The notes under the pieces are model-generated. The model was not told the DNA's origin and did no database searches. It saw only the letters and a list, made by a program, of their open reading frames with translations. Source: Bacteroidales bacterium Bact_23 (GTDB lineage Bacteria; Bacteroidota; Bacteroidia; Bacteroidales; Lentimicrobiaceae). From it: a stretch of DNA of 33,373 nucleotides. Each line of letters opens with the position of its first letter. Position 1 is the first letter of the stretch. The DNA lies in assembly GCA_001603685.1 (NCBI GenBank), contig LUZO01000048.1:1-33373 (forward strand), given 5' to 3'. The position numbers and the translations under genes are program-made. Of this stretch, positions 71 through 7,121 are shown in pieces.

Positions 71-1162
71 ATGAAAATAAAAACCGCATTGCTGACGGTA
101 TTTTTGCTCATTTTGGTTACCGTCGCAAATAAAGATCTGGGAGCTCAGACAGAAACGCCCTCGTACGAAGAGCTTACCGGCAAAATCAATGATCTGCAAC
201 ACCGGCTCGACCAGCTTTCCAAGGGAATCGACGATATCCTCTGGTTCCAGCGGGTAGCCGATGTGGCCTTTATCGATAAAATTTTCATCACCGGCCCGCC
301 TCCAGCCAATGTAAAAAATCCAACGGCCATGGGAGCTGCAAACCCCCTGAAGTTTTACAATTATGTTTTTATTCCCAAATGGATAGACCCGAAAGGCAAA
401 TATCCGCTGATTGTGCTTCCACATGGCGGCGTACACGGCGACTTTACCACCTACCATACCCACATAATCCGCGAACTGATGGCACAGGGCTACATCGTGG
501 CGGCCCCCGAATACCGTGGCAGCACCGGATACGGAAAAGCATTCTGGAAACAGATTGATTACGGCGGACTGGAAATTGAAGATGCAAAAGCCGCACGCGA
601 CCATATGGTTGAAAATTACGAAATGGTTGACGGCTCCAGGGTGGGAATCATCGGATGGAGCCATGGAGGACTGATTGCGCTAATGAATGTATTCAACTAT
701 CCCGAAGCATATAAAGCCTGCTTTGCCGGTGTCCCCGTCAGTGATCTGATAGCCAGAATGGGATACTACGACGAAAATTACCGGGAACTTTTTTCAGCTG
801 ATTATCACATCGGAAAAACAGCGCAGGAAAACATTGAGGAATACCGCCGCCGCTCACCCGTCTGGAATGCCCACAAGCTGAAAACTCCCCTGCTTATCCA
901 TACCAATACCATCGACGACGATGTGAATGTGCTGGAAGTGGAACATCTCATCAAATCACTGAAGGCGGAGGGGAAAAAGTTTGAATATGAAATCTTTGAA
1001 AACATCGAAGGCGGCCACTCGTTCGACCGCATCGATACCAAAACGGGCAAGGAGATCCGGCTGAAAATCTACCGCTTCCTCGACAAACACCTGAATCCGC
1101 CCCGTAAAATCAGCTCAGTTTCCGACATGAACAGAGCCGCCTACCGGCCGGCCGGTAACTAA
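71..1162 (+). CDS. Secreted alpha/beta hydrolase, prolyl oligopeptidase (S9) family
   Basis: This is a 363-residue protein starting at the ATG at 71. Residues 1-26 form a signal peptide ending in GAQ, and residues 31-55 look like a short coiled coil. The rest is an S9-type alpha/beta hydrolase domain. It has an HGG oxyanion region at 118-120, the nucleophile elbow GWSHGG with Ser197, an acid in the IDDD stretch (about 282-284) and the catalytic His316 in EGGHSF. Known S9 peptidases carry an N-terminal beta-propeller and are 600-700 residues long. This one lacks the propeller, so it may be a peptidase or esterase acting on small substrates in the periplasm or outside. The substrate cannot be read from the sequence. 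It converges with the TonB gene and the two share a terminator-like hairpin. Confidence 0.85.
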   Translation: MKIKTALLTVFLLILVTVANKDLGAQTETPSYEELTGKINDLQHRLDQLSKGIDDILWFQRVADVAFIDKIFITGPPPANVKNPTAMGAANPLKFYNYVFIPKWIDPKGKYPLIVLPHGGVHGDFTTYHTHIIRELMAQGYIVAAPEYRGSTGYGKAFWKQIDYGGLEIEDAKAARDHMVENYEMVDGSRVGIIGWSHGGLIALMNVFNYPEAYKACFAGVPVSDLIARMGYYDENYRELFSADYHIGKTAQENIEEYRRRSPVWNAHKLKTPLLIHTNTIDDDVNVLEVEHLIKSLKAEGKKFEYEIFENIEGGHSFDRIDTKTGKEIRLKIYRFLDKHLNPPRKISSVSDMNRAAYRPAGN

Positions 1163-1181
1163 GCGGCCCGTTGTTAACCGC

Positions 1182-1232
1182 CAAATCCCGGTGCCTCTCT
1201 TCGCAGGACGGCACCAGGATTTGCCCCGTTTT
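1182..1232. terminator. Bidirectional terminator between convergent genes
   Basis: CAAATCCCGGTGCC (1182-1195) pairs with GGCACCAGGATTTG (1210-1223) over 14 positions with a single C/A mismatch. CCCCGTTTT follows on the plus strand. It sits between the ends of the hydrolase gene and the minus-strand TonB gene. Confidence 0.65.
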
Positions 1233-1238
1233 ATCCGC

Positions 1239-1916
1239 TCAGTTTACAAGCCTGAAAACAACCGGCAGGTTCAACATTACCCGCACCGGTTTCCCGGCCT
1301 GATTGCCCGGCTTCCAGGCAGGCATTGAACCAACTACCCTTACCGCCTCTTCGCTGCATCCTCCTGCCACACCCCGCAATACTTTTACCGATGAAACGCT
1401 TCCATCCTTTTCGATTATAAAAGTGATGTAAACTGTTCCTGAAATTCCGGCTTCTCTGGCCTGGGTCGGATATTTGATGTTTAGTGCAAGATATTTCATT
1501 AACGCAGCCTCTCCGCCCGGGAACTCAGGCATTCTTTCAACTATCACAAAAGGAGCTTCGTCTGTTACATTTGCCTCTTCGGGAAGTGGATCGGGAAAAA
1601 AGATCAGAGAAATGGGTTCGTCAATACCGGTTTCGACATCTATACTGATGTCCTGAAGGTCTTCTGTAATGTCGGCAACCACATTGATCAAAGTGGTATT
1701 CACAGGTTTAGGCATCTCTTTTTTAAAGTTAACCACCTCAATAAGTTCGGTTTCCGGCTCAACGGCGGTCCTCAGGGGCAAATCGATACCGCCCGGGTCG
1801 GGAGTTTTCCACTCAAAAGCCACCAATACGGCAGCAAGCGAAACAGTCATCCCTATCTGAAGAAATACAAAGCGCTTTCTTTCAAGGTTGGCTTTTTTGG
1901 TTTTTCGTGTTTCCAT
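1239..1916 (-). CDS. TonB-type energy transducer, Bacteroidota form
   Basis: This 225-residue protein has a short charged cytoplasmic head, one membrane helix at about residues 18-37, a linker rich in acidic residues and prolines, and a TonB C-terminal domain from about residue 122 to the end. The domain carries PEFPGGE, NIKYP, the GTVYITFIIEKDGS strand and MPAWKPG with NLPV, all hallmarks of Bacteroidota TonB proteins. TonB couples the inner-membrane proton motive force, through ExbB/ExbD, to outer-membrane receptors. No exbB, exbD or receptor gene is nearby. The gene is divergent from the ECF sigma/anti-sigma unit. The anti-sigma protein carries a closely similar C-terminal domain, about 60% identical by a hand alignment without gaps, which points to duplication within this locus. 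Confidence 0.9.
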   Translation of the reverse strand: METRKTKKANLERKRFVFLQIGMTVSLAAVLVAFEWKTPDPGGIDLPLRTAVEPETELIEVVNFKKEMPKPVNTTLINVVADITEDLQDISIDVETGIDEPISLIFFPDPLPEEANVTDEAPFVIVERMPEFPGGEAALMKYLALNIKYPTQAREAGISGTVYITFIIEKDGSVSSVKVLRGVAGGCSEEAVRVVGSMPAWKPGNQAGKPVRVMLNLPVVFRLVN

Positions 1917-2018
1917 GACTTTACATTTTAAAAGGGTGATTTCTTACAGTAATAGATTCACTTAAAGCCGGTTTTCCATAATAAAAGGGTAAATATTTTC
2001 GTTTTCAACATTCTTCAG

Positions 2019-2042: not shown

Positions 2043-2660
2043 ATGCTTAAAAAACAAACTGCAATGGTTGAAAACTCCCCCGATGGAATTCTGCTAAATA
2101 ATCTGACAGATGAAGAGCTGTCGGAAATGTTCCGTCAGACCGGAGACCGGGGGGCAATTCGCATTTTGTTCGACAGATATGCACATCTGGTTCTCGGCCT
2201 CAGCATGAAGTATCTGGGAAATCGCGAGGATGCCAGGGATGCCGCCGCCGAAGTCTTCCGGAAACTGATTCCCTCGCTGAGCAAATATGAAATCACCAAC
2301 TTCAAGGCCTGGCTGATTACCGTGGCCAAGAATCAATGCGCAATGATGCTGCGCGAACGCAAAAAGGAGGGAATCAGAATAGGCTGGGAAGATTATTTGG
2401 TTAGCGGAATTGTGGAAAACAGGGAAGATTTTCATCTTAATCATGAGGATGTTAATGAAAAAGAGGAGCTCATTCAAAAGTTATACAAAGCCATTGACAA
2501 GCTGCCGCAGAAACAGCAACATTGTCTGCTGCTGTTCTATTTCGAAGGAAAATCGTACCGCGAAATAGAAGAGATGACCGGCTTTACCAACATGGAAGTG
2601 AAAAGCCACATCCAGAATGGTAAGCGGAAACTGAAACTTCTGATTGAAAATCCGGAATAA
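2043..2660 (+). CDS. ECF-type RNA polymerase sigma-70 factor
   Basis: This 205-residue protein has the two-domain plan of extracytoplasmic-function sigma factors. Region 2 spans about residues 35-100, with LFDRYAHLVLGLSMKYLGNR, then DARDAAAEVF and FKAWLITVAKN. Region 4 spans about residues 145-200, with KAIDKLPQKQQ, LLFYFEGKSYREIEEMTG and EVKSHIQNGKRKLK, the DNA-binding helix-turn-helix. It would direct RNA polymerase to a small regulon. The next gene, 10 bases downstream, is its presumed anti-sigma factor. An alternative ATG lies at 2064 and I cannot choose between the two with certainty. Confidence 0.93.
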   Translation: MLKKQTAMVENSPDGILLNNLTDEELSEMFRQTGDRGAIRILFDRYAHLVLGLSMKYLGNREDARDAAAEVFRKLIPSLSKYEITNFKAWLITVAKNQCAMMLRERKKEGIRIGWEDYLVSGIVENREDFHLNHEDVNEKEELIQKLYKAIDKLPQKQQHCLLLFYFEGKSYREIEEMTGFTNMEVKSHIQNGKRKLKLLIENPE

Positions 2661-2670
2661 TCGTTTGAAA

Positions 2671-3786
2671 ATGGAAGAAAAATCAACATATCAGCTGTTT
2701 ACCCGTTCCGGATGCCTGACACCCGAAGGAATGGCTCTTTTTGCCGATAATAAACTCAGCCGCAGGGAGATGGATCTGGTAAACAAGCATCTGGAAGAGT
2801 GCGAGTTGTGCAGCCTGGCCATGGAGGGCTTTATGCTATACCCCCAGGAACAGTTTGATGAAGATCTGCAGGATATTAAAAAAGGTTTTTCTTCGAAGCA
2901 GGCGGTACAACCTGTAGTATATGCTAAAAAACTCATTCCTGAACCATCCGTTTCACTTCATGCAATGGACAGGATAACACCCCAACCCGAAGAAAAGATA
3001 CCTGAAATCCGGCATACCGGTAAATTCCGTACCATCCTGGTTGCTGCAGCGTTTATCCTTCTGTTTACCGTTGCCGGATGGTTTCTGATACTGCTGTATG
3101 AGATAATCCGTCCGCAAAAACAGGCCGATCTGGCAGTGATCACGAAAACGGAAAAGTCAACAGCTCCTGCCGGACCTTCCGATTATCCATCCATCGCTCA
3201 GGAATCCGTGGAAGCCACACAAGAGGCGGAAACATCACATCCTCCCCTTCCACCACCCGCCGCATCTGCAAGAGCAGTTCCCATTGTTCAGCATGATAAA
3301 GAAAAAGAAGCTGTGAAAACCGTACCGGAAATGGCTGCTCATGAAAAGATTCAGGCAAAGGCTGCTGCCGGAGAACGACAAATCTATGCTGATGCACAGG
3401 CTGTTGAGGACGACGGGAAAGATGCCTTATTGCCTGAGGAAATTATGGAAGAAGAAGCGGAAGCCGGAATTTTTATGGTAGTTGAAGAGGCGCCGGCCTT
3501 TCCGGGAGGTGAAGAGGCGCTGAGGAAGTTCTTAAAGGATAATATCAGGTATCCGCAGCAGGCGCTGGATGCTTCGCTACAGGGAACCGTATTTGTAACT
3601 TTTGTTGTTGAGCAGGATGGCAGCATCGGCAATGCACGGGTATTAAGAGGAATCGGAAAGGGATGCGACGAAGAAGCCCTGAGGGTAGTTAAAATGATGC
3701 CCGCATGGAAACCGGGCACACAACGCGGCAAGCCTGTAAAAGTGCAAATAAATTTACCGGTAAGATTTGCTTTGACAAATGATTAA
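2671..3786 (+). CDS. Transmembrane anti-sigma factor fused to a TonB C-terminal domain
   Basis: This is a 371-residue protein from the ATG at 2671; a TTG at 2644 would overlap the sigma gene and is less likely. The N-terminal cytoplasmic part carries His40, Cys44 and Cys47 in the HxxxCxxC pattern of zinc-binding anti-sigma domains, with Cys15 as a possible fourth ligand. A single membrane helix lies at about residues 121-147. It is followed by a long Ala/Glu/Pro-rich periplasmic stretch and a complete TonB C-terminal domain from about residue 268, with PAFPGGE, NIRYP, GTVFVTFVVEQDGS and MPAWKPG. Anti-sigma factors normally bind the neighbouring sigma factor and release it on a periplasmic signal. 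Here the periplasmic end is the domain that normally contacts TonB boxes of outer-membrane receptors. The fusion is directly visible; the signalling role is inferred. Confidence 0.88.
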   Translation: MEEKSTYQLFTRSGCLTPEGMALFADNKLSRREMDLVNKHLEECELCSLAMEGFMLYPQEQFDEDLQDIKKGFSSKQAVQPVVYAKKLIPEPSVSLHAMDRITPQPEEKIPEIRHTGKFRTILVAAAFILLFTVAGWFLILLYEIIRPQKQADLAVITKTEKSTAPAGPSDYPSIAQESVEATQEAETSHPPLPPPAASARAVPIVQHDKEKEAVKTVPEMAAHEKIQAKAAAGERQIYADAQAVEDDGKDALLPEEIMEEEAEAGIFMVVEEAPAFPGGEEALRKFLKDNIRYPQQALDASLQGTVFVTFVVEQDGSIGNARVLRGIGKGCDEEALRVVKMMPAWKPGTQRGKPVKVQINLPVRFALTND

Positions 3787-3810
3787 GACTCAAATTCAGA
3801 AAATCAAGTC

Positions 3811-5070
3811 ATGGGAAACCGCATAAAAGAAAATATTGAAAATCCAGAATTCCTTGAAAGGTTATACCGGGAGGATAAAAAGCATTTTGAACGGGCCTTT
3901 TTTGAAATTTACCCTGAATTATCCGGTTCTCCGATGGCTGATTTCTGGAAAGCAAGGCTTGTTTTCGGAAAACAGCGTGAGGAAAGTACGGGAGTCCTGA
4001 AAAACGAAATTCTGTTTCTGATCATTGCCTGCCTGATTGCAGGATTTCTCATCAAACTTCCGGACATTTTTAACTTCAAGTCCGAAAGCTACCTGTTTTA
4101 TGAGAAAAATGCCGGCCTTGTCGTTTTTCTCGGCTTGTCGGTTTATGCCTTCCTGACAAAGCCCCGGTTCAATTCTAAGCAATTGATTTTCACCATGCTG
4201 ATTTTTGCGGCTTCGGCAGTTTACATTAACCTGCTGCCCAACGATACCAATATTCATTCCGTCAGCCTGGCACTGCTTCATTTCCCTCTGTTTCTATGGT
4301 ATCTCTATGGCCTTTTATTTGCAGATTTCGATTTAAAGAACAAAGCTGCCCGGATTGATTATCTGAGATACAACGGAGATATCGTTATTCTGGCGAACAT
4401 CCTGTTGCTTGCCGGCGTGATTTTAACGGCCATAACCCTGGGACTTTTTTCAGTCATTGGCCTCAATATTGAAGATTTCTACATGGAATATATCGCAACC
4501 ATTGGATTGGTTTCATCGCCGATTGTAGCAACCTACATCATTAAAATCCTCCCGATGGTAACCAATAAGATTGCTCCGATAATTGCCGGTATTTTTAGTC
4601 CGCTGGTACTGATTACCCTGGTTATCTATCTGATAAGCTTTGCTTTAATGGGAAAAGACCCCTACAACGACCGGGATTTTCTCATCATTTTCAATCTTAT
4701 GCTGATCGGGGTCATGGCCCTTATCCTGTTTTCGGTATCTGAAACTTCGGTTGAGAAGAAACAGAGGTTTAACGAGCTGGTGCTGTTTGCATTATCAATC
4801 GTAACGCTGATTGTTGATTTGATCGCTTTGTCAGCCATACTGTACCGGCTTGGAGAATATGGCTTCACCCCCAACAGAACGGCGGTTCTTGGATTAAACC
4901 TCCTGATCTTTGGAAACCTGATTCTGATTATGATCGATTTATTCAAAGTCGGTTTCAGGGGAAAAAGGATTCAGGATGTTGAAAAAACCATTGCATCTTA
5001 CCTTCCTGTCTATCTGGTATGGATCGCCATTGTTACATTTGGATTTCCATTTATTTTCGGGATGAAATAA
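3811..5070 (+). CDS. Polytopic membrane protein, DUF4153-like
   Basis: This 419-residue protein has a soluble N-terminal 65-70 residues rich in charged residues, then roughly ten hydrophobic helices to the C-terminus. A segment near residue 350 (YGFTPNRTAVLGLN) resembles the conserved stretch I associate with the DUF4153 family, whose function is not known. It begins 24 bases after the anti-sigma/TonB gene on the same strand, so it is probably the third gene of the sigma operon. It has no catalytic motif that I recognise. The family assignment is tentative; an integral membrane protein is certain. Confidence 0.6.
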   Translation: MGNRIKENIENPEFLERLYREDKKHFERAFFEIYPELSGSPMADFWKARLVFGKQREESTGVLKNEILFLIIACLIAGFLIKLPDIFNFKSESYLFYEKNAGLVVFLGLSVYAFLTKPRFNSKQLIFTMLIFAASAVYINLLPNDTNIHSVSLALLHFPLFLWYLYGLLFADFDLKNKAARIDYLRYNGDIVILANILLLAGVILTAITLGLFSVIGLNIEDFYMEYIATIGLVSSPIVATYIIKILPMVTNKIAPIIAGIFSPLVLITLVIYLISFALMGKDPYNDRDFLIIFNLMLIGVMALILFSVSETSVEKKQRFNELVLFALSIVTLIVDLIALSAILYRLGEYGFTPNRTAVLGLNLLIFGNLILIMIDLFKVGFRGKRIQDVEKTIASYLPVYLVWIAIVTFGFPFIFGMK

Positions 5071-5151: not shown

Positions 5152-5285
5152 CATCGGGACATATTTTTCTCAGCCGCAAACATTTGAGTTACTTGTATTT
5201 GACTAATAATCAACAGGTTTAGTATTGTTTCTCAATCAAGATAAGAATGTCCGGTATGGGAGAAATCAGGATTAAAGTATTTGAA

Positions 5286-7121
5286 ATGAAATTTTTAAGA
5301 ATTACCATCATCCTGGTTGCGGCTTTCGGTTTATTACCTGTAAATCGCCTCTTCAGTCAGGTTGAACCGGCTGCAGCCGATACAAGCCGCAGTGAATTTG
5401 AATTTATCAAAGACGATTTTATAGCTGCATCTCTCGACAGTCTGGCCAACCTGAAATATTTTCAGGGCTTTGAATGCCCCGATGATGAGACCCTGAAGAA
5501 TGTATTTGGCTTCACACCAGGTTTTGTTCCTGTTTATGCCGATTCGGTTTATTACAACCGCCTGAAGGTTCTGAGTGCCGGCTCGCCCATAAATCTTACA
5601 TACAACCAGTATGTTAAGGATTACATTGAACTGTATGCCATTAAGAAAAGAGGGTTGACCCAGCGTGTTATGGGCCTTGCCCAGATTTATTTCCCCATGT
5701 TCGAGGAGCAGCTCGACCGCTTCAATATGCCGCTTGAGCTGAAATATCTGGCCATCGTGGAATCGGCGCTCAATCCGGTTGCAAAATCCAGGGTTGGCGC
5801 AACAGGTTTATGGCAGTTTATGTATGGAACCGGCAAAGCTTACAAACTGAATGTAACTTCACTGGTTGACGACCGCCGCGATCCGCTGAAATCGACCATT
5901 GCAGCGTGCGAACACATGAGCGACCTCTACAGAATGTACAACGACTGGCTGCTCGTTCTCGCCGCCTACAATTCCGGTGCCGGCAATGTAAACAAGGCAA
6001 TCCGCCGTTCGGGAGGCAAGATGGACTTCTGGCAGATAAGACCATTCCTGCCCCTTGAAACCAGAGGTTATGTACCCGCCTTCATTGCAGTAAACTATGT
6101 GATGGAATACGCCGCCGAACACAACCTCAGGCCGGTAAGCCCACTGTATCATCATTATGAAATTGATACGGTTATTGTAAAGGATGTGCTGTCGTTCAAC
6201 CAGATATCATCCATGCTCAACATCCCGGTCGAAGAGATCGAATTTCTGAACCCGGCCTATAAAGGGGGAATCATTCCTGCCACCAGGGACAACACTTATG
6301 TGCTGAGGCTTCAGAAAAAGAACATTCCCGATTTTGTAAACAACGAAGCTCAATTGTATGCTTTCCGCTCACAAGCCGAGATCGAGAAAGAACAGGTGAT
6401 GGCAATGATGAAAACCGTTACTCAGGCCGAATATCACAAAGTAAAAAAGGGTGAGTCGCTGGGAAGCATTGCCGGCAAGTACCGTTGTTCGGTAAACGAT
6501 CTGAAACGGTGGAACAAGCTTAAATCAACCAACATCCAGATTGGCCAGCGGCTGATTGTAAGGCCTGAAAGCACACAGCAGGTCAGCTATGCGCAGGCAA
6601 AACCCAAACCCGCCCCCGCTGCCGCTCCTCAGCCGGCAAAAGCCGAAGAACCTGCGAAGGAGACCGTTACAGCTACCACTTCGGAAGAAGTTGCAGCCAA
6701 CACAGCAGCCGACAGCCTGCCGGCTGAAACAGAAGTTAAAATCCATAGAGAAAATAAATACCACAAGGTACGGCCGGGCGAAAATCTCGGAAAGATCGCT
6801 GCAAAATACAATACAACCATTGCAGCTATTCAGAAACTGAACAATATGAAAACTGCTGACATTCAGGCTGGTAAAAACCTGATTGTAGGGGTTACCGAGA
6901 TAAAAACAACCGTTCAGCAGGCCGATACAGGTAAAATATCCAAACCCGGGGATAAAAAAGACACCTATATGTATTATACTGTTCAACAGGGCGATACGCT
7001 GTGGAAAATTGCCAACAAATACGAAGGCGTTACCGTTGACGATATCAAACAGCTCAATAATATTACCGACGAAAAGCAGATAAAACCCGGACAAAAATTA
7101 AAGGTAGTCCCCGTATCCTGA
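5286..7121 (+). CDS. Membrane-associated lytic murein transglycosylase D-like, SLT plus three LysM domains
   Basis: This is a 611-residue protein from the ATG at 5286, chosen because it opens a clean signal peptide (residues 1-25, ending LFSQ). An in-frame ATG at 5247 would add 13 polar residues in front of it. The SLT domain lies at about residues 145-290: the catalytic Glu159 sits in AIVESALNP, followed by GATGLWQFM and LAAYNSGAGNV. Such enzymes cleave the glycan strand of peptidoglycan, leaving 1,6-anhydro ends. Three LysM modules follow at about 387-430, 500-545 and 563-609, each opening with Y(H/Y)xVxxG(E/D), and separated by Ala/Pro/Glu/Thr-rich linkers. A degenerate LysM-like segment lies near 305-350. 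LysM binds N-acetylglucosamine-containing glycans, so this fits an MltD-type wall remodelling enzyme in the periplasm. Confidence 0.92.
   Translation: MKFLRITIILVAAFGLLPVNRLFSQVEPAAADTSRSEFEFIKDDFIAASLDSLANLKYFQGFECPDDETLKNVFGFTPGFVPVYADSVYYNRLKVLSAGSPINLTYNQYVKDYIELYAIKKRGLTQRVMGLAQIYFPMFEEQLDRFNMPLELKYLAIVESALNPVAKSRVGATGLWQFMYGTGKAYKLNVTSLVDDRRDPLKSTIAACEHMSDLYRMYNDWLLVLAAYNSGAGNVNKAIRRSGGKMDFWQIRPFLPLETRGYVPAFIAVNYVMEYAAEHNLRPVSPLYHHYEIDTVIVKDVLSFNQISSMLNIPVEEIEFLNPAYKGGIIPATRDNTYVLRLQKKNIPDFVNNEAQLYAFRSQAEIEKEQVMAMMKTVTQAEYHKVKKGESLGSIAGKYRCSVNDLKRWNKLKSTNIQIGQRLIVRPESTQQVSYAQAKPKPAPAAAPQPAKAEEPAKETVTATTSEEVAANTAADSLPAETEVKIHRENKYHKVRPGENLGKIAAKYNTTIAAIQKLNNMKTADIQAGKNLIVGVTEIKTTVQQADTGKISKPGDKKDTYMYYTVQQGDTLWKIANKYEGVTVDDIKQLNNITDEKQIKPGQKLKVVPVS

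Follow-up and report, generated by a model that had tools for sequence, protein, structure and literature searches.

An ECF sigma factor gene paired with an anti-sigma-like protein that ends in a TonB C-terminal domain

What might a protein do that joins an apparent anti-sigma domain on the cytoplasmic side of a membrane helix to a TonB C-terminal domain (TonB_C) on the periplasmic side? The question is raised by a 33,373-nucleotide stretch of DNA (the window; contig C45 of a genome of 3.7 Mb in 677 contigs) from Bacteroidales bacterium Bact_23. A preliminary description of this DNA had placed such a gene 10 bases after an ECF sigma factor gene, and had proposed that the energy transducer and the sigma-holding domain are here one molecule. 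The gene arrangement was borne out: the sigma gene occupies 2043–2660, and after a gap of 10 bases the second gene starts with the ATG at 2671, which was taken as the start in place of a TTG at 2644, considered and set aside.

The gene pair and the two ends of the protein

The features of the locus are as follows.

1239–1916, minus strand: divergent stand-alone TonB, 225 residues (PF03544, 57.8 bits); predicted target of the sigma factor
1955–1981, minus strand: promoter-like motif, TTATGGAA-N14-GAATC, 38 bases upstream of the divergent TonB start
2043–2660, plus strand: ECF sigma factor gene, 205 residues (TIGR02937, 98 bits; Pfam Sigma70_r2 and r4_2)
2671–3786, plus strand: apparent anti-sigma factor with TonB C-terminal domain, 371 residues, ATG at 2671
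2671–2901, plus strand: its apparent zinc-type anti-sigma domain, cytoplasmic, residues 1–77 (alignments, AlphaFold2, fold matches)
2713–2715, 2788–2790, 2800–2802 and 2809–2811, plus strand: codons of the zinc ligands C15, H40, C44 and C47
3025–3108, plus strand: single membrane helix, residues 119–146, lacking the N-terminal segment of stand-alone TonB and S-x3-H
3109–3465, plus strand: periplasmic tether, Pro-rich and predicted to be disordered, residues 147–265 (about 120 residues)
3466–3783, plus strand: TonB C-terminal domain, residues 266–371 (PF03544, 69 bits; Foldseek matches)
3811–5070, plus strand: DUF4153-like protein with 10 helices, between the anti-sigma and LysM/SLT genes
5247–7121, plus strand: LysM/SLT lytic transglycosylase-like protein (Pfam SLT, LysM), placed in the system by synteny only

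The N-terminus of the window protein looks like a zinc-type anti-sigma domain because of its conserved ligands, the presence of an ECF gene next to 104 of 105 relatives (see below) and its weak fold matches to anti-sigma factors. The preliminary description had read His40, Cys44 and Cys47 correctly as an HxxxCxxC motif and had missed the fourth ligand, Cys15; the full arrangement is C15-x24-H40-x3-C44-x2-C47, and all four residues are invariant in 13 genus orthologues and in a 73-sequence alignment. Profile searches, the check it had proposed for both domains, gave TonB_C 69 bits (Pfam cut-off 24.6) and zf-HC2 20.3 bits (E 6e-4), slightly below the Pfam cut-off of 22.2; among relatives, zf-HC2 was matched by 47 of 90 at E 0.01, the best at 1e-7. 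AlphaFold2 predicted four confident helices (residues 18–25, 31–43, 45–56 and 59–74/77; mean pLDDT 83.5), and 10 of the 11 fold matches in the PDB were anti-sigma chains (RsiW, ChrR, RslA), all weak and each with E > 1. A divergent anti-sigma protein in genome G024 (L332/L336, G024:C17) has a TonB_C and lacks the zinc ligands, so zinc would appear to be dispensable in some members.

The C-terminus is a true TonB C-terminal domain (CTD) fold. All significant Foldseek matches were known TonB CTDs, among them that of Helicobacter pylori TonB (2e-5) and Pseudomonas aeruginosa TonB in its complex with FoxA (9e-5), and the full-length AlphaFold2 model contains a confident TonB CTD beyond a tether whose pLDDT is mostly below 60. 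The tether is also the least conserved part among the 13 genus orthologues. The full TonB domain, the single helix (approximately residues 119–146) and the lack of a FecR domain, for which neither Pfam nor NCBIfam profiles gave a match in the window protein, all agree with what had first been described.

The description ‘energy transducer’, unlike the fusion of an anti-sigma-like N-terminus to a TonB CTD fold, was not supported. Stand-alone TonBs of the surveyed genomes, the divergent TonB of the window included, share an N-terminal membrane segment, ADLExKR...FEW, to which an HMM of the segment found no significant match in any of the 105 anti-sigma proteins. Nor does the window protein contain the sequence S-x3-H, found in only one (L058) of the 42 TonB-type proteins scanned, and its helix comes after a cytoplasmic stretch of about 118 residues. 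Conversely, the window TonB_C is 65% identical to that of a stand-alone TonB in its own genome (contig C47), a figure that reaches 85% in relatives. Because the membrane segment is absent and TonB_C stays close to stand-alone TonB, the protein looks to us like a sensor made from the binding domain of TonB rather than a powered TonB.

Gene conversion between the anti-sigma TonB_C and stand-alone TonB was considered as the source of this closeness and rejected; anti-sigma TonB_Cs differ less from stand-alone TonB than among themselves because stand-alone TonB evolves slowly. The only real exchange evident in this comparison was in the contrast of G001 and G003 with G006. A TonB_C tree was too short to resolve origins. 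Elsewhere in the genus, at G001:C1:2562699-2564054 and similar sites, open frames of approximately 700–860 residues carry three to four tandem TonB_C-like domains.

Distribution, exchange of the periplasmic end and gene neighbourhood

A single contig-level scan with the N-terminal domain returned only six loci, and the survey was therefore done by whole-genome searches, in which 87 of 295 genomes searched in the order gave a match, as did 29 of 396 in the phylum. The sigma/anti-sigma pair is present in 15 of 19 genus genomes, far above chance, and the relatives recovered come from genomes named Bacteroidales or Bacteroidetes, among them a Lentimicrobium. An ECF gene lies directly upstream in 104 of 105 distinct relatives, overlapping or within 60 bases in 94. 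The periplasmic ends of these 105 proteins comprise 43 TonB_C, 34 TPR and 12 other; 16 proteins were short or cut at the end of a contig or locus. The preliminary description, which had advised a survey of such fusions beside ECF genes, had missed how common the fusion is, the swapping of its periplasmic half from one lineage to another, and the promoter motif and recurrent set of genes that come with it.

The TPR-tailed sister family (L083–L122; for example L087, L105 and L109) has the same sigma/anti-sigma pair with a C-terminal TPR domain. In a tree of the sigma factors the TonB and TPR labels cluster, yet parsimony requires at least seven exchanges, and two TonB-type members, L113 and L119, are nested within a supported TPR clade. 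The contrast between G001 and G006 locates such an exchange within the gene: identity is 96% in the sigma factor, 89% in the anti-sigma domain, 40% in the tether and 66% in TonB_C, and the DNA sequences cease to align just upstream of the helix, aligning again close to the TonB_C domain. We conclude that the periplasmic half has been swapped between lineages with the sigma factor and anti-sigma domain retained.

Some periplasmic ends depart further from the usual forms. That of L113 (G140, 2993–4207, minus strand) consists of a Plug domain and a weak TonB_C, and that of L128 (G693, 370–1725, minus strand) of CarbopepD_reg and TonB_C; in both, pieces of TonB-dependent transporters are borne by anti-sigma factors. 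Two genus proteins first scored as short (L022 and L023) proved, as whole sequences (L159, 6254–7156, minus strand; L160, 4572–5444, plus strand), to have a degenerate TonB_C from which FPGG...YP has been lost; the domain is probably decaying or has taken on another role.

The usual gene order in the genus is VIT-VWA-TonB_C, stand-alone TonB, then divergently ECF, anti-sigma, LysM/SLT, DUF4837 and TetR, the VIT-VWA-TonB_C protein being approximately 780 residues long with a signal peptide. The divergent stand-alone TonB of the window occupies the same position in most genus relatives. The VIT-VWA gene is absent from the window, and its DUF4153-like gene, which separates the anti-sigma gene from LysM/SLT, is missing at that site from the other genus genomes fetched, where LysM/SLT lies directly 3′ of the anti-sigma gene. 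When each genome contributed a single locus, 34 of 45 TonB-type loci had a stand-alone TonB and/or VIT-VWA gene no more than 4 kb away, as against none of 31 TPR-type loci (Fisher, 2e-12, a value that overstates the evidence because related genomes are not independent, so that what matters is the pattern over many families); outside the genus, 21 of 30 TonB-type loci have such a neighbour. Three anti-sigma proteins that lack TonB_C (L192, L193 and L194) still have the divergent stand-alone TonB beside them.

A promoter-like motif and its predicted targets

Between the divergent genes lies a motif with the consensus TTATGGAA-N14-GCATC, directed at the TonB or VIT-VWA gene. The copy in the window matches 12 of 13 positions, with GAATC as the mismatched block, and taken alone is not significant within 33 kb. 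Across the genus genomes there were 29 exact matches against one in the reversed control; eight of the 29 fall inside sigma genes, owing to the conserved coding sequence for ME-x6-H, and two more inside other genes. Exact matches numbered 46 against seven in reversed controls for TonB-type genomes and 41 against two for TPR-type genomes (both counts including sites within sigma genes), and 11 against three where the pair was not detected. By genome, 27 of 33 TonB-type and 22 of 31 TPR-type had a match, compared with eight of 31 without a detected pair (p values of 1e-5 and 8e-4, subject to the same relatedness of the genomes). Intergenic sites mostly lie 28–76 bases upstream of start codons; when aligned, they show T preceding the first block, GCATC flanked by T-rich sequence and a favoured A approximately nine bases downstream of GCATC, a pattern like that of a promoter, with the transcription start predicted at about the position of this A.

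A motif-like sequence also occurs inside the sigma gene of the window (2410–2436, plus strand), and exactly in many other sigma genes, about 195–240 bases before the anti-sigma start. This is probably a coding coincidence arising from ME-x6-H, a weak internal promoter being also conceivable. No motif directed at the sigma gene was found in the sigma upstream regions; a scheme in which the sigma factor drives its own operon from the motif was considered and is unsupported, because the motif upstream of the sigma gene faces the divergent gene.

The classes of gene that recur downstream of the motif are stand-alone TonBs, VIT-VWA proteins, CarbopepD_reg-like proteins and a protein of 2,000 residues whose MG2, A2M and bMG10 domains make it a bacterial alpha-2-macroglobulin (A2M). 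The gene for the last is unlinked to the sigma/anti-sigma locus. The motif stands before every one of the 14 A2M genes located in genus genomes that have the pair, at 11–13 of 13 positions and 49–136 bases upstream, the window's own genome (C132) among them; these counts leave aside G002 and G016, in which the A2M start was not located. Of three genus genomes without a detected pair, the motif is absent before A2M in two and present in G012. In G007 and G013, where the pair has no flanking TonB gene, the motif precedes an unlinked TonB gene. The motif also precedes A2M and VIT genes in TPR-type genomes, so promoter specificity has seemingly been kept despite the change of tail. In G024, negative by protein profile, motif sites are found at an ECF gene, an anti-sigma–TonB_C gene and a divergent CarbopepD/VIT gene. 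A further candidate target is a secreted protein of 135 residues with the exact motif 41–44 bases upstream (L206 and L229; G003:C58 and G001:C2).

Alpha-2-macroglobulins are protease traps, and VIT-VWA is the arrangement of inter-alpha-inhibitor heavy chains. Together these suggest that the genes preceded by the motif may form an envelope-defence regulon. From the co-occurrence of motif and pair we infer that this sigma factor reads TTATGGAA-N14-GCATC, which other ECF factors may also read.

Possible modes of action and known systems

We think it fairly probable that the locus encodes an ECF sigma factor together with an anti-sigma factor of class I, which senses the state of the envelope through its TonB-like end and releases the sigma factor for an envelope-defence regulon. 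The cytoplasmic domain would hold the sigma factor, while the single helix and the long flexible tether would put the TonB-like domain in the periplasm, within reach of peptidoglycan or of the periplasmic face of the outer membrane. There the domain would act as a swappable sensor, binding either an outer-membrane partner shared with TonB or the cell wall. A change in the bound partner would inactivate the anti-sigma factor, probably by regulated proteolysis, and the freed sigma factor would then transcribe from the motif the genes for stand-alone TonB, VIT-VWA(-TonB_C) and bacterial alpha-2-macroglobulin.

A bolder form of this account, which we offer tentatively, makes the anti-sigma TonB_C a decoy that competes with stand-alone TonB for outer-membrane partners, with occupancy or damage read directly and more TonB, VIT-VWA-TonB_C and alpha-2-macroglobulin made in response. 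If so, this would be an envelope-damage response through TonB mimicry, and exchange of the tail (TonB_C, TPR, or Plug or CarbopepD with TonB_C) would retune the signal while promoter specificity was kept.

It is possible, and in our view unlikely, that TonB_C serves simply as a generic periplasmic fold for anchoring or dimerization, for instance to peptidoglycan or to the TonB_C of neighbouring proteins, the signal being protease damage to the tether. Three different cluster proteins do carry a TonB_C, which in some members is degenerate (L159, L160) or replaced by TPR; the cluster includes the LysM/SLT wall enzyme, and the predicted alpha-2-macroglobulin target belongs to a protease-trap family. 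Unlike the tether, however, TonB_C is strongly conserved in most orthologues and stays near to stand-alone TonB, which suggests a shared ligand over mere bulk.

That another regulator reads the motif, the sigma/anti-sigma pair being merely linked to the TonB and VIT genes, seems rather improbable. The tie between motif and sigma factor is one of co-occurrence, the motif is present in eight of the 31 genomes where the pair was not detected, and no copy directed at the sigma gene was found; but the motif does accompany the pair, by itself recovered the divergent pair of G024, and stands before the unlinked TonB gene in G007 and G013. Least of all do we favour a working TonB energy transducer, coupled to ExbBD and docking with receptors so that receptor contact or loss of energization passes directly to the sigma factor: its true TonB CTD fold (with receptor-bound TonB among the closest solved relatives), its identity to stand-alone TonB and its TonB-like single helix and Pro-rich spacer are outweighed by the missing membrane segment and S-x3-H, the long cytoplasmic stretch before the helix and the TPR-tailed sister proteins, which operate apparently through the same promoter.

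A sensor that releases its sigma factor, as we prefer to see this protein, would matter in Bacteroidota because ECF regulation there is poorly assigned: the gain would be a recognizable anti-sigma family with exchangeable periplasmic sensors and a candidate promoter sequence, and the predicted targets would join TonB, an inter-alpha-inhibitor-like VIT-VWA protein and a bacterial alpha-2-macroglobulin. Class I anti-sigma domains accompany only 6% of Bacteroidetes ECFs (PMC7406223), and TonB goes unmentioned in the text of that study. In the literature searched, which did not take in the main ECF re-classification, there was no match for zf-HC2 with TonB_C, or for anti-sigma with ‘TonB C-terminal domain’ in Bacteroidetes. 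The parts are known; their combination, breadth, exchangeable tails, motif and A2M/VIT/TonB set were absent from that literature, and priority is uncertain.

Among known systems, the FecI/FecR/FecA type of surface signalling shares with this locus an ECF factor, a membrane anti-sigma factor and a conceptual link to TonB. Here, however, FecR is lacking, TonB_C is on the anti-sigma factor itself, and no TonB-dependent receptor was seen among the conserved-cluster genes scanned, which were part of the flanking genes, so that receptor contact is just one possibility. The window protein resembles the class I factors RsiW, ChrR, RslA and RsrA in its Hx3Cx2C motif and the fourth ligand some 25 residues before it, its predicted helical bundle and a gene adjoining that of an ECF factor, and RsiW also in its membrane helix; it differs from them in the TonB CTD at its periplasmic end. 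With TonB energy transducers it has in common the CTD fold, the single helix and the Pro-rich spacer, but it adds an apparent cytoplasmic anti-sigma domain and is without the membrane segment of genuine TonBs.

In layout the window protein resembles the Dma proteins of Bacteroides thetaiotaomicron, also a member of Bacteroidota, which have an N-terminal anti-sigma domain, one helix, a long disordered tether and a folded C-terminal domain that faces the outer envelope (PMC13088901). The Dma proteins end in a beta-barrel, whereas the window protein ends in a soluble TonB CTD; they are linked to vesicle formation, Dma1 with an ECF21 partner (PMC13088901), whereas the targets predicted here are different. 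Given the common layout, the window protein may act in the manner of a Dma although it is not itself a member of that group.
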